A stretch of 64,000 nucleotides of DNA. Origin: Oscillospiraceae bacterium. Lineage in GTDB: Bacteria; Bacillota; Clostridia; Oscillospirales; Oscillospiraceae. The notes beneath the pieces were generated by a model. That model searched no databases. It was not told the origin of the DNA and worked only from the letters and a program-made list of their open reading frames with translations. This document shows positions 4,768 through 29,583 of this stretch, in pieces. Every line of letters begins with the position of its first letter. Position 1 is the stretch's first letter. Both the position numbers and the translations under genes were made by a program. The stretch is from assembly GCA_902801295.1 (NCBI GenBank), contig CADCHN010000007.1, forward strand, positions 1 through 64,000, given 5' to 3'.

Positions 4768-5580
4768 TCAAACCAGATATCCGTCTCTGCCCTTGAGGCC
4801 GAAGCGGGCTTCCAGCTGATGCATCATGTCGTCGGTGATGGTGTTCACGCGCGGGAGATGCGCGATCTTCATGTAGATCTCGGCAGCCTTCTCGGCGGTC
4901 TCGATGAGGCCGAAGGTCTCGTCCAGATCCTTGCCCGCACCGTAAATGCCGTGGAGAGACCAGACGACCAGACGGGCGGTGCGCATCTTCTCCGCCGTGG
5001 CCTCGCCGATCTCGTTGGTGCCGCAGAGCATCCAGGGCAGCACGTTCACGCCGTCCGGGAACACCACAATGCACTCGGTGCACATCTGCCAGAGCGTGCG
5101 GGTAAACTCCCGCTCGTCCAGGGTGTGAACATAGGTCATGGCCAGCAGATTGGCCGGGTGGCAGTGCATGACCACGCGGTTCATGGGGTCGACCTTGATG
5201 CGGGCCACATGGCTCATCATGTGGGCAGGAAATTCAGAAGTGAACTTGCCGCCGTCGGTGTAGCCCCAGAGGAGCTCCGCCGTCTCGCCGCCGTCGGTGA
5301 TGCGGACGAGGCCCAGGTTTACATTGGGAGCATACTGGACGTTCTTGAAATACTTGCCGGTGCCGGTGACGAGAAAGTACTTCCCGTCCAGCTCCGGCGC
5401 GGAGAAGCCGGTGGGGATGGTGCGCAGAACCTTATCGGTTTCGAGGTACTCTTTGACCTCCGCTTCATCCAGCAGCAGGCTGATGTTGCCGCCGTTGCGC
5501 TCATCCCAGCCGTGGTTGTACATATTCGTAGTGGTGCGGATCATCCCCACCATAAAGGGCGCGGTCAGAATGTCTTTCAT
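4768..5580 (-). CDS. rhaD: Rhamnulose-1-phosphate aldolase
   Basis: A 270-residue class II aldolase that splits L-rhamnulose 1-phosphate into dihydroxyacetone phosphate and L-lactaldehyde. It matches E. coli RhaD along its length: HGWDERNGGNIS near residue 25, VTGTGKYFKNVQ, the zinc ligands in VVMHCHPANL and SLHGIYGAG, and LDETFGLIETAEK near the end. I chose ATG 5580 (MKDILTAPFM) because RhaD proteins begin there. However, no Shine-Dalgarno site is visible before it, and nine upstream codons from a TTG at 5607 are open. The 5' flank runs directly into a truncated integrase gene, so the native promoter and leader seem to be lost and expression is doubtful. No other rhamnose genes are in the window. 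Confidence 0.85.
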   Translation of the reverse strand: MKDILTAPFMVGMIRTTTNMYNHGWDERNGGNISLLLDEAEVKEYLETDKVLRTIPTGFSAPELDGKYFLVTGTGKYFKNVQYAPNVNLGLVRITDGGETAELLWGYTDGGKFTSEFPAHMMSHVARIKVDPMNRVVMHCHPANLLAMTYVHTLDEREFTRTLWQMCTECIVVFPDGVNVLPWMLCGTNEIGEATAEKMRTARLVVWSLHGIYGAGKDLDETFGLIETAEKAAEIYMKIAHLPRVNTITDDMMHQLEARFGLKGRDGYLV

Positions 5581-5607
5581 CGTGGGCGCGGCGCTGATGG
5601 TAAACAA

Positions 5608-6906
5608 TTAAAACCGTGGACGGCAACTTTTGAAGTGCAGCCTACATGGACGGAAAAGAGCGCACGAAAAAAGGCCGAGGCTTTCGCCGCGACCTTTGAA
5701 AAAGAATGCAGAGAAGGAACGACCAGCGACAGCCGCCGGAAGTTCTCCGAATACTGCGATTATGTAATTGATCTGAAAGAAGCACGCGGGGCAAAGCACA
5801 GCACCGTTGTCTGGTACAAAGAGCAGACGGAGCGCATCTATCCCGAGATCGGACACATCAAGCTGAAGGATCTCCGTGCCGATCATCTCAATCGCCTCTA
5901 CACCAAGCTATCAAAATCCACCGTCAAGGCAACGACCGCAAAAGCTATGGTCGATCTTCCCGCTATCCTAAAAGAAAAGCACCTCACCCGCGCTGCCATC
6001 GCAAAAGCGACCGGATTGTCCGAGAACACCGTCCGCATTGCCGTCCACGGAGATCATTGCAGCGCAGCAACTGACGCCGCCACCTCCGCCGTTCTCGGCT
6101 TGAAGATGGACAAGTGCTTCATGGTGCTGAACGAAAACAAGACGCTCTCAGCGAAAACGATCTCCGGCTGCCACCGTCTGATCTCCGCTGTTCTGACGCA
6201 AGCCGTGAAAGAAGGTCTGATCCCGTTTAATGTTGCCGCAAACGCCGAAATGCCGAAATCAGAGAAGAAAGAGATCAACAGCTTGCAATCCTCTGATCTG
6301 CCCGCAATCCTGTCCGCTCTGGATCAGGAGCCGCTCAAATGGAAGGTTATCACACATTTGCTGTTGATCACCGGAGCGCGTCGCGGAGAGATCCTCGGCC
6401 TCAAATGGTCTGCTGTGGACTTTGCCGGAAATCGTCTGCACATCTGCAACAATGTGATTTATACTCCAGATCGCGGCACATATCAGGACACGCCGAAAAC
6501 GGCATCCTCTGATCGCTGGATCGCCGTTCCTCCCGAGACAATGAAGCTCCTCCGGGATTGGAAAGGCTTCCAGAAAAAAGACGCAGAGACAAAGGGCGAT
6601 TTCTACCGGAACACGAGCGAGCTTCTGTTCACGCAGGAGAACGGCTCTCCCATGTGCCCGGACAGCATGACAACATGGCTCAATCGCTTCGCAAAGCGGC
6701 ATGGTCTGCCCCACATCAATCCGCACAAGTTCAGGCACACAATGGCATCCATGCTGATCTATCAGCGCGTCGATCCTGTCTCCGTTTCAAAGCGCCTCGG
6801 TCATGCTCAGGTTAGCACGACAACGGATATATACGCCCATGTGATAGCCGAAGCCGACCGCCAAAACGCCGATCTGCTCGCCGGGATTTTCCTCGCAAAT
6901 AGTTGA
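5608..6906 (+). pseudogene. 5'-truncated tyrosine recombinase with an internal HTH domain
   Basis: About 430 codons of a phage/ICE-type tyrosine integrase. It has an arm-binding/SAM-like N-terminal domain (KFSEYCDYVIDLKEAR, HIKLKDLRADHLNRLY), then an inserted Cro-like helix-turn-helix (residues about 125-165: LTRAAIAKATGLSENTVRIA), then the catalytic domain with R (TGARRGEILGLKW), K, H-x-x-R (HKFRHTMASML), H (LGHAQVSTT) and the nucleophile Y (DIYAHV). The frame is open to the left but only as a shadow of rhaD. The usual N-terminal ~25 residues and any start codon are missing, so the gene is cut at the junction with rhaD near 5600. The C-terminus is intact, ending 255 bp from the 3' end of tRNA-Arg, the typical integration side. 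Confidence 0.82.
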
Positions 6907-6979
6907 ATTTTCAGAGTGAGTTGAATTAAAGTTGAATTATTGAGCCTGAGTAAAATCATAAAAAGCTCAAAAAATACGA

Positions 6980-7013
6980 AAAACCACCGATTTTTCATGA
7001 AATCGGTGGTTTT
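6980..7013. terminator. Terminator hairpin beside the duplicated tRNA tail
   Basis: AAAACCACCGATTT and AAATCGGTGGTTTT form a 14-bp stem with T-rich flanks on both strands. Read leftward it directly follows the 22-bp copy of the tRNA-Arg 3' end at 7015-7036, as a tRNA terminator would. Read rightward it lies about 75 bp past the integrase fragment. Confidence 0.75.
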
Positions 7014-7014
7014 C

Positions 7015-7036
7015 TTTGGTACGGCTGACGGGATTC
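7015..7036 (-). repeat. Duplicate of the tRNA-Arg 3' end (att-like)
   Basis: These 22 bases are identical to 7159-7180, which cover the CCA end, acceptor strand and part of the T arm of tRNA-Arg. The copy is 144 bp downstream of the true gene in the tRNA's direction. Together with the neighbouring integrase fragment it looks like an attachment-site remnant, though the tRNA-Ser locus at 29341 has the same arrangement without an integrase. Confidence 0.8.
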
Positions 7037-7125
7037 CCCGCCTGCGGGCGGGCCGGCTCGCGGCTCTGGCGTGCCACCGGCACGCCATTCACTCCCGCTC
7101 GCTTCGAATCCCTTTGATCCAATTC

Positions 7126-7161
7126 AAAATCCCGGTACCCCTGATGGGGTACCGGGATTTT
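7126..7161 (-). terminator. 16-bp hairpin terminator of tRNA-Arg
   Basis: AAAATCCCGGTACCCC and its exact complement flank a TGAT loop, beginning at the last base of the tRNA CCA end. Read leftward the stem ends in ATTTTG, fitting an intrinsic terminator. Confidence 0.85.
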
Positions 7162-7237
7162 GGTACGGCTGACGGGATTCGAACCCACGACCTCCAGAGT
7201 CGGAGTCTGGCACTCTATCCAGCTGAGCTACAGCCGC
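7161..7237 (-). tRNA. tRNA-Arg (anticodon CCG)
   Basis: A 77-nt cloverleaf on the minus strand with acceptor GCGGCTG/CAGCCGT closed by one G-U pair, D arm GCTCAGCTGGATAGAG, anticodon stem CCAGA/TCTGG around loop CTCCGAC, T arm GGGTTCGAATCCC, discriminator A and an encoded CCA. The anticodon CCG reads CGG arginine codons. Its 3' end is repeated at 7015-7036. Confidence 0.95.
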
Positions 7238-7314
7238 ATATGCCTTGACGGCGGGGTGTATTATAACAAAATTCCAGCGCAAAGTAAATAGCTGTTTTCA
7301 ATTTTGTTTTTGTA

Positions 7315-7323
7315 TGCTATAAT
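7315..7323 (+). promoter_or_regulatory. Extended -10 promoter for apbE
   Basis: TGCTATAAT matches the extended -10 consensus, 51 bp before the start of apbE. TTTCAA 16 bp upstream is a poor -35. Confidence 0.6.
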
Positions 7324-7374
7324 GATGTAACATGCTGACAGAATACATACATGTGCGGAATAAGGGATGAACAT

Positions 7375-8439
7375 ATGAAACGTCAATTTTTTCTCAGGGT
7401 ATGCGCCCTGCTCCTGTGCCTTCTGACAACGCTGTCGCTGGCCGCCTGCGGGGAGAGCACCGAATATCACCGGGAAGTATACGCCATGGACACCGTCATG
7501 ACGCTGACGGCCTACGGCCCCAAGGCAGAGGCCGGGCTGACCGCCGGTGAGTCCGTCATTCTCTCCATGGATGCAATGCTCGATCCCGAACTTCCCACCA
7601 GCATCGTCTATGCCATGAACCACGCGCACGCCGCCTCCGTCTCCGTTCCGGGTCAGGTGGCCCGCATGATCCAGGCAGCGCAGACCGTCTATCAGCAGAG
7701 CAACAAGCTTGGCATCAATTCGCTCGACCTGTCGGTGTATCCCCTGGTCAAACTCTGGGGCTTTGTGGACGGCAGCTACTATGTCCCCAACGACCTGGAA
7801 ATCGCCGACGCGCGCTCCCGCCTGCAGTTTGACCAGGTGATCCTCAGCAGCTTCCCCAGCTCGGGCAGCTATGAGGTGAGCATGCCGGACGGCTGCGAGA
7901 TCAGCTTCGGTGCCGTCGCCAAGGGCTGCACCTCCGCCTACGTCATCGACGCCATGCGAAACGCCGGCGTCACCAGCGGCATCATCTCGCTCGGCGGCAA
8001 CATCCAGACGCTCGGTCTCAAGCCGGACGGCAGCAAATGGCGCATCGGCATTGCCGACCCCAACAGCCCGGATACCTACCTGGGCATTCTGACCGCGGGA
8101 GAGATCGCCGTTGTCACCAGCGGCAGCTATCAGCGCAATTTCACCGACCCGCGCACCGGAAAGCTCTATCACCACATCATTGATCCGCGCTCCGGCCGCC
8201 CCGCCGAAAACTCCCTGGTCTCCGCCACGGTGATCTGTGAGGACGGCGCCATGGCCGACGCGCTGTCCACCGCAATGTTCGTTCTGGGCGAAACCAACGC
8301 CCTGCGCTACTGGCGCACCTACGGCAGAGATTTCGAAATGATCCTGGTCACCAAGGACAACGAGGTCGTCTGCACCAGCGGGCTGATCGAAGAATTCAGC
8401 CTCGAAAACCAGAACTACACGCTGAGATTTTCCGAGTAA
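7375..8439 (+). CDS. apbE: FAD:protein FMN transferase, lipoprotein ApbE
   Basis: A 354-residue ApbE-family enzyme that attaches FMN from FAD to a threonine of target flavoproteins such as RnfG/NqrC-type subunits. It starts with a lipoprotein signal (MKRQFFLRVC to LSLAAC, lipobox Cys about residue 24), so it is anchored outside the membrane. Family motifs are YAMDTVMTLTAYG, the SFGAVAKGCTSAYVID block, SLGGNIQTLG and the HHIIDPRSGRP metal/FAD motif followed by ICEDGAMADALSTAMFVLG. ATG 7375 is chosen over the upstream in-frame ATG 7351 because the signal peptide begins here and AAGGGA precedes it. No Rnf or Nqr genes are in the window. It ends 6 bp before recG, so the two are probably cotranscribed. 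Confidence 0.93.
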   Translation: MKRQFFLRVCALLLCLLTTLSLAACGESTEYHREVYAMDTVMTLTAYGPKAEAGLTAGESVILSMDAMLDPELPTSIVYAMNHAHAASVSVPGQVARMIQAAQTVYQQSNKLGINSLDLSVYPLVKLWGFVDGSYYVPNDLEIADARSRLQFDQVILSSFPSSGSYEVSMPDGCEISFGAVAKGCTSAYVIDAMRNAGVTSGIISLGGNIQTLGLKPDGSKWRIGIADPNSPDTYLGILTAGEIAVVTSGSYQRNFTDPRTGKLYHHIIDPRSGRPAENSLVSATVICEDGAMADALSTAMFVLGETNALRYWRTYGRDFEMILVTKDNEVVCTSGLIEEFSLENQNYTLRFSE

Positions 8440-29288: not shown

Positions 29289-29301
29289 TACTATGTGAAT
29301 G

Positions 29302-29341
29302 AAAAAGAGCACCCCACCCTATCGGGTGAGCTACTCTTTTT
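29302..29341. terminator. Terminator hairpin beside the duplicated tRNA-Ser tail
   Basis: AAAAAGAG and CTCTTTTT form the outer stem, with CACCC/GGGTG inside. Read leftward it directly follows the 3'-tail copy at 29341-29362. Confidence 0.8.
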
Positions 29342-29362
29342 GGCGCAGAAGGAGGGATTTGA
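29339..29362 (-). repeat. Duplicate of the tRNA-Ser(GCT) 3' end
   Basis: 24 bp identical to 29488-29511, covering the CCA end, acceptor strand and part of the T arm. The offset is 149 bp, close to the 144 bp at tRNA-Arg. Confidence 0.85.
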
Positions 29363-29451
29363 TCCACCTTGCGGTGCCCGAAAAACCGTTCGGGCTTACG
29401 CTTTTCCTCCGGTTTTTCGACCGCTGCGCTCGGGTTCAAATTCTCTATATC

Positions 29452-29490
29452 AAAGGAAAGACCCCGTCCATCGGACGGGGTCTTTCCTTT
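29452..29490 (-). terminator. 18-bp terminator of tRNA-Ser(GCT)
   Basis: AAAGGAAAGACCCCGTCC with its exact complement and a 3-nt loop, starting at the CCA end of the tRNA. Confidence 0.9.
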
Positions 29491-29583
29491 GGCGCAGAAG
29501 GAGGGATTTGAACCCTCGCGCCGGGTCTAAACCGGCCTACTCCCTTAGCAGGGGAGCCCCTTCGGCCTCTTGGGTACTTCTGC
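29490..29583 (-). tRNA. tRNA-Ser (anticodon GCT)
   Basis: A 94-nt class II tRNA on the minus strand: acceptor GCAGAAG/CTTCTGC, anticodon stem CTCCC/GGGAG with loop CTGCTAA, long variable arm (GGCCGG to CCGGC region), T arm GGGTTCAAATCCC, discriminator G and encoded CCA. GCT reads AGC and AGT serine codons. Its 3' end is repeated at 29339-29362. Confidence 0.95.

Follow-up and report, generated by a model that had tools for sequence, protein, structure and literature searches.

In a 64,000-nt stretch of a contig from an Oscillospiraceae bacterium (the window), the 3′ end of a tRNA-Arg gene stands twice, each copy followed by a terminator, with a folded spacer between the two and an integrase remnant nearby. 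The question raised by this locus is whether the arrangement is a scar left by an integrase or a defined element that carries its own terminator and conserved fold.

Structure of the tRNA-Arg(CCG) unit

A tRNA gene with anticodon CCG was predicted by ARAGORN where an earlier note, made from the sequence alone, had put a tRNA-Arg. Features of this locus, in window coordinates, are as follows.

7161-7237, minus strand: host tRNA-Arg(CCG) gene (ARAGORN), of which the part from the T-loop onward is the inner tail copy (direct repeat)
7125-7162, minus strand: inner terminator hairpin with a 17-bp stem (arms 7125-7141 and 7146-7162; inverted repeat)
7103-7112, minus strand: left arm of helix P1, an inverted half of the host T-arm (GGGATTCGAA on the minus strand)
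7056-7102, minus strand: core domain P2, GCGAGCGG ... hairpin GGCGTGCC/GGCACGCC ... CCGCGAGC, with GA/GA mismatches (covariance model match and covariation)
7037-7052, minus strand: core domain P3, hairpin CCCGCC-CGCA-GGCGGG (covariance model match and covariation)
7015-7036, minus strand: outer copy of the tRNA tail, GAATCCCGTCAGCCGTACCA and 2 further nt, which also provides the right arm of P1
6980-7013, minus strand: outer terminator of 14 bp (arms 6980-6993 and 7000-7013; inverted repeat)
about 5614-6906, plus strand: truncated tyrosine recombinase (Pfam PF00589)

The tail repeat seen in the earlier note was exact over 22 nt (7015-7036 and 7159-7180, 100% identity, spacing 144); 19 bases of it, with up to 3 mismatches allowed, occurred at only these two places in the 64 kb and in none of 100 shuffles. 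The inner terminator hairpin was likewise located where that note had placed it, although its stem was 17 bp long and not 16 bp, and the second, different terminator beyond the outer tail and the two further hairpins of the spacer, GGCGTGCC/GGCACGCC in P2 and CCGCC/GGCGG in P3, were all present. The T-arm-like sequence remarked on the opposite strand, TTCGAATCCC at 7103-7112, proved to be an inverted copy of the T-loop and the 3′ strand of the T-stem; with the first bases of the outer tail it forms P1, which encloses P2 and P3 as two more helical domains. Folding of the 246-nt stretch including the tRNA as RNA gave a z of -6.75 versus shuffles (0/200 as good), and folding of the 98-nt unit as DNA was less striking (z -2.75, 4/200 shuffles as good).

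Distribution, pairing and host-matched arms

BLAST revealed related units in the same 2.0-Mb genome behind tRNA-Arg(ACG), tRNA-Gln(CTG) and a tRNA cluster, and another 0.9 kb away, behind tRNA-Pro(TGG). In this genome, a 20-nt tail copy, with at most 4 mismatches, was found within 1.4 kb of 6 of the 30 tRNA genes and an inverted T-arm 44-53 nt downstream of 7 of them; when, as a control, the tail of one tRNA was sought behind another, 20 of 870 combinations matched, tRNA clusters included. A covariance model built from two units of the window's own genome (R1) had matches in 31 of 60 genomes, that genome among them. A second model (R2), built from 88 matches, had matches in at least 77 of 295 genomes and at least 40 of 149 genera of the order, and in at least one of 398 genomes across the phylum, which was the window's own; these counts are lower bounds, 15 candidates per genome having been scored in the order and 11 in the phylum. 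The genomes compared were one representative per species, and many were fragmented. Scanning named genomes with a sequence pattern yielded at least 120 stretches, and the 80 scan matches listed came mostly from rumen and gut Oscillospiraceae and other Clostridia assemblies.

Among 213 distinct matches, 140 followed a tRNA or tmRNA gene on the same strand at no more than 700 nt, 101 of these within 130 nt of the host gene (median 51 nt), and the hosts comprised 27 kinds, namely 26 anticodons and tmRNA. The suspicion of a defined cassette and not a one-off was thus borne out, the same unit recurring behind all of these kinds. Of the 73 matches with no tRNA in reach, 30 ended in CCA at tRNA spacing, and the remaining 43 included a dispersed variant (see below) and decayed copies. 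A unit with a tail of tRNA-Ser type was also observed at L104 (3739-3824; window's genome, contig C9), with no tRNA on its 7-kb stretch and none listed on the contig; it reads as an orphan produced by a rearrangement or by insertion of a long segment.

The order within a unit was tail (T-loop to CCA), terminator, short spacer, inverted T-arm, P2, P3 and next tail. Every unit possessed a terminator, which usually differed from one unit to another, and a typical unit of about 145 bp had no room for a gene. Conserved folding of the spacer at many loci, proposed earlier as the check to be made, was indeed found: all five helices covaried, with double-sided changes in 28 of 31 pairs, and 97.1% of cells were paired versus less than 50% in slid structures; no covariation measure was reached in any of 500 shuffles, in an alignment which had been fitted to the structure of the model and is thus biased towards it. 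G.U accounted for 20 of 2291 standard pairs in the units (0.9%) versus 180 of 1999 in tRNA stems (9.0%; 92 of 162 tRNAs, the rest having failed the bracket filter). A.C mismatches, equivalent to G.U on the other strand, numbered 25 in the units, about as frequent as G.U; ARAGORN brackets show no A.C, so that this number is not comparable with tRNA stems. G.U is tolerated by RNA on its own strand and less so by a DNA hairpin. The near absence of G.U from the unit stems is therefore read as selection acting on DNA, pointing to helices that pair at the DNA level.

The left arm, which ended in GAAC in 65 of the 140 units, matched its own host more closely than it matched other hosts on average; this held for 87 of 92 units, those among 153 with a tRNA within 700 nt. 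In L274, for example, the T-loop of the tRNA-Tyr had GTCC instead of GTTC, and its unit had GGAC instead of GAAC. Cores only 1-2 differences apart occurred behind different tRNAs, both arms being adapted to the host, as for example in the near-identical pairs of Ser(CGA) and Gly(CCC) and of Leu(CAG) and Ser(TGA); judging from these sequences, cores appear to change hosts, with the arms being fitted to the new one.

The window itself contained a second unit, overlooked in the earlier note, behind tRNA-Ser(GCT) (29490-29583).

29341-29489, minus strand: second unit, in which the tail copy is exact and terminators stand on both sides
29434-29443, minus strand: its inverted arm, GAATTTGAAC
29301-29340: its outer terminator

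The core of this unit was divergent from that of the first, giving a weak match with R1 (20.1 bits) and none with R2. A divergent core was also observed in the tRNA-Thr(GGT) unit of locus L027, and the two together suggest that further core types exist.

Displaced terminators, arrays and cargo

According to the earlier note, the inner terminator came with the cassette and the outer one was original to the tRNA. An empty and a filled site at tRNA-Leu(CAG) bore this out. In the window's genome this tRNA had no unit, and its flank followed directly after CCA; in L198 it was followed by a new terminator and a unit, and the equivalent flank (86% over 144 nt) came after the outer tail and included the terminator hairpin of the empty site. 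The native terminator had thus moved outward and the inner one had come with the cassette. By analogy, the hairpin at 7125-7162 is read as having arrived with the cassette, and that at 6980-7013 as the original terminator of tRNA-Arg. A shorter pair of empty and filled sites was present at tRNA-Leu(TAG) (L157 versus the window's genome, 84% over 92 nt), in a stretch belonging to a repeat that also occurs behind other tRNAs.

The first set contained 20 multi-unit arrays, and arrays had up to five units (L135). P2 types A, B and C were mixed in 8 of the 20, as is expected of separate insertions, and identical units were present within arrays L086, L088, L265 and L268; by their sequences, some arrays are plain tandem duplications. 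Preferential decay of outer tails fitted the first arrays and failed on 39 interior versus 113 last tails (p = 0.62), and with no such excess in last tails, the order "newest next to the tRNA" has no support from tail decay. A terminator of CGTC type was found behind none of 82 tRNAs with units, none of 21 interior tails and 10 of 67 last tails, counts which agree with outward displacement; as evidence for displacement it is not relied on, for it followed only 2 of 79 unit-free tRNAs and belongs to a repeat common to different tRNAs. This repeat, starting with CGTC and including a terminator hairpin, was present in the window from 44604 on, behind tRNA-Ser(TGA), and in the outer flanks of L003, L094, L108, L109, L147, L157, L177 and L201, where it followed either the CCA of various tRNAs or the last tail in an array, and it appears to be a distinct repeat family.

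Genes were also carried between tail copies or units. They encoded a Vat-like acetyltransferase (259 bits, below the Vat cut-off of 300), an HTH regulator (L114), a 23S-IVP protein and a protein with a cytidine-deaminase domain (L089), Sel1 and histidine-phosphatase proteins (L100), and a restriction-modification pair of a DNA methylase and a TdeIII-type endonuclease (L268), the last located between the truncated third and the complete fourth unit of a tRNA-Ser(GGA) array. No integrase gene was present among the cargo in the six intervals read, and L176 and L177, where the intervals are longer, may hold ordinary islands.

Cassette model, known systems and rival explanations

The explanation that we favour, tentatively and as somewhat short of probable, is that the family consists of mobile cassettes of one bacterial order, anchored at tRNA and tmRNA genes, the folded DNA of which would act like the attC site of an integron. 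A cassette would enter the tRNA gene at the T-loop and supply a replacement 3′ end and a new terminator, so that the tRNA would stay functional, while the old tail and old terminator would be shifted downstream. The core and the two T-arm-derived arms would fold into a three-way junction, and this folded single strand would be the recombination site, the tRNA T-loop playing the part of attI. Arrays would be built by repeated insertion beside the tRNA and by tandem duplication, and genes between the terminator and the folded core would move as cargo. The make-up of the units, the fit of arms to host, the DNA-like covariation, the empty site, the arrays and the cargo are observed features; present mobility of the cassettes and the folded-strand mechanism we infer, and the enzyme would be a tyrosine recombinase acting in trans on the folded strand. 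Tyrosine recombinases are the only enzymes known to use tRNA genes as targets, and the T-loop is one of the subsites (PMC4383910), which makes such an enzyme the first guess.

Several observations speak against this model. The family could not be linked to any recombinase: homologues of the window integrase, sought beside arrays, were near few of them, and in none of 38 genomes of the genus did an integron integrase (TIGR02249) pass the cut-off. Last tails were not more decayed, and some arrays are tandem duplications. Furthermore, a cassette transferred to another tRNA would disrupt that tRNA unless the tail were rewritten, for which simple recombination gives no explanation.

Integron cassettes, as described in a published source (PMC8618304), are small tandem units with a folded end site and single-gene cargo, some being gene-free. 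The units shared with them the tandem arrangement, a conserved folded site in each unit, single-gene cargo and gene-free members, and with attC an imperfect hairpin in which fold is conserved more than sequence and arms that mimic the docking site. In contrast to integrons, the docking site is the T-loop of a tRNA or tmRNA, each unit restores the end of the tRNA together with a terminator, the inverted copy that forms the arm is specific to the host, and no integron integrase exceeded the cut-off in the 38 genomes. The integron R-box letters are RYYYAAC ... GTTRRRY, whereas the right arm of the units lacked GTT in most rows and read GGTC, GCGA or GGGA. CALIN arrays can lack intI, and a missing intI alone thus does not exclude integron descent; since two defining features of integrons were not found, the attC-like family is not classed as a member.

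Genomic islands at tRNA genes (Islander type), with which tycheposons are grouped, likewise restore the tRNA and leave a displaced 3′ fragment at the far end, but the units are usually about 145 bp long, have no integrase inside, share a folded core among all hosts and form tandem stacks. According to the Islander account (PMC4383910), the T-loop is a known subsite of such islands, and candidates shorter than 2 kb or without an integrase are rejected, which may be why the cassettes went unreported. Palindromic repeats of the REP and MITE kinds are similarly short, folded, non-coding and repeated, and a dispersed relative of the core exists; unlike them, the units have a tRNA-specific site and a host-matched arm and replace tail and terminator, and no Y1 transposase, the mark of REP and IS200/IS605 derivatives, was found in several unit-rich genomes. 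Among the titles and abstracts listed by searches of the open PMC literature, none described such cassettes, and the family is apparently undescribed. If the cassette model holds, it would place a further class of mobile DNA alongside integrons and tRNA islands, one which an island finder would discard as small and lacking an integrase; gene capture could use some of the most conserved genes of the cell without harm, and rumen and gut bacteria would gain a route for exchanging resistance-like and restriction genes.

In L102, the inverted tail of tRNA-Leu(CAA) was present in full between terminator and core, error-free over its 24 nt, and L281, L213 and L247 retained most of such a tail. Over 135 units, the likeness of the spacer to the inverted acceptor end of its own host was 2.50 versus 1.98 in shuffled hosts (sd 0.09), a value reached in 0 of 200 host shuffles; a score of at least 8 of 13 was seen in only 4 units. 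The left arm therefore looks like what selection has retained of a full inverted tail for which the terminator was the hinge. This inverted host tail is the oddest finding, and we know of no mechanism that fully explains it; it raises the testable question of an element that writes its own target specificity from its target. It is possible, if on the unlikely side, that the family is a system parallel to integrons with a generic core, for which any tRNA gene is a docking site and the specificity is made afresh in each host through reverse copying of the tRNA tail, starting at the hairpin of its own terminator, the tRNA being restored and genes carried.

Unlikely, in our estimate, is that birth by such folding back and spread by template switching account for the family without a recombinase. 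A growing DNA end, or a reverse transcriptase on the pre-tRNA, would fold back at the terminator hairpin, copy the tail in reverse up to the T-loop, switch by way of the common T-loop letters to a core at another place, and then return to the tail. The inverted tails of L102 and the other three loci and the spacer likeness over 135 units argue for this scheme, which also accounts for arms that always fit the host. However, several precise switches at the same letters would be required in many tRNAs, and a reverse transcriptase (PF00078) was not found in the window's genome, G004, G019, G022, G025 and G031, with 6 to 15 units each, many of these being incomplete assemblies in which absence is not proof.

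We regard it as quite unlikely that the units are old, immobile repeats whose form is maintained by gene conversion and tandem duplication and which serve, for example, for back-up termination or to shield the tRNA end from integrating phages. The terminator in every unit and the identical neighbouring units agree with this, and conversion could produce the likeness of cores between tRNAs; against it stand the empty and filled sites in related species, the mixed core types inside arrays, the cargo genes between tail copies and the near absence of G.U, which an RNA role would allow. A structured RNA core, serving for example tRNA 3′ processing or regulation, is highly improbable despite the stable RNA fold and strong covariation: G.U has one tenth of its frequency in tRNA stems and A.C occurs at a similar level, a terminator precedes the core, and in Rfam searches over units in five loci only tRNAs reached gathering scores.

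That the nearby integrase left a plain att scar here, or that a Y1 (IS200/IS605) transposase moved a REP-like element, is hardly tenable, for although the recombinase remnant lies 108 bp from the outer tail and a dispersed non-tRNA relative of the core exists, the unit was present behind 27 host kinds, mostly with no integrase homologue in reach, and Y1 transposase (PF01797) was not found in the window's genome, G004, G013, G018, G019 and G035, which carry 3 to 15 units each and include many incomplete assemblies, so that absence is not proof. The doubt expressed in the earlier note about an att scar was therefore justified, and a plain excision scar, occurring only here and with an intact element between the tails in relatives, was not what was observed. 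The tandem arrays, the gene cargo, the arms fitted to the host and the remnant of a full inverted tail went beyond what that note had foreseen. The recombinase of the window is the remnant of another element, outside the cassette: the upstream part of its reading frame is antisense to an aldolase gene, and the head-on junction of the remnant with this aldolase-type gene (4768-6906) indicates that most of its element has been deleted.

The one integrase observed beside a unit, of 422 aa, was in L288 (reverse complement, 6543-8100), ending just before a longer, 44-nt 3′ fragment of tRNA-Lys that is followed by a unit. It looks like part of a different phage or island, one targeting the anticodon part of the tRNA, which seems to have displaced the tRNA end and the unit together. 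Phage and plasmid collections, searched with one unit each, gave no match. The dispersed relative of the core, with a different P3 side (...ACCGAGCCGCAGCGAGA...), was observed away from tRNAs, and also twice in one phage contig; its positions are L226 4979-5054 and 8633-8708, with further copies in L097, L186, L188, L194, L197, L199 and L220. A search of IMG/VR returned one contig, which carried this dispersed variant.
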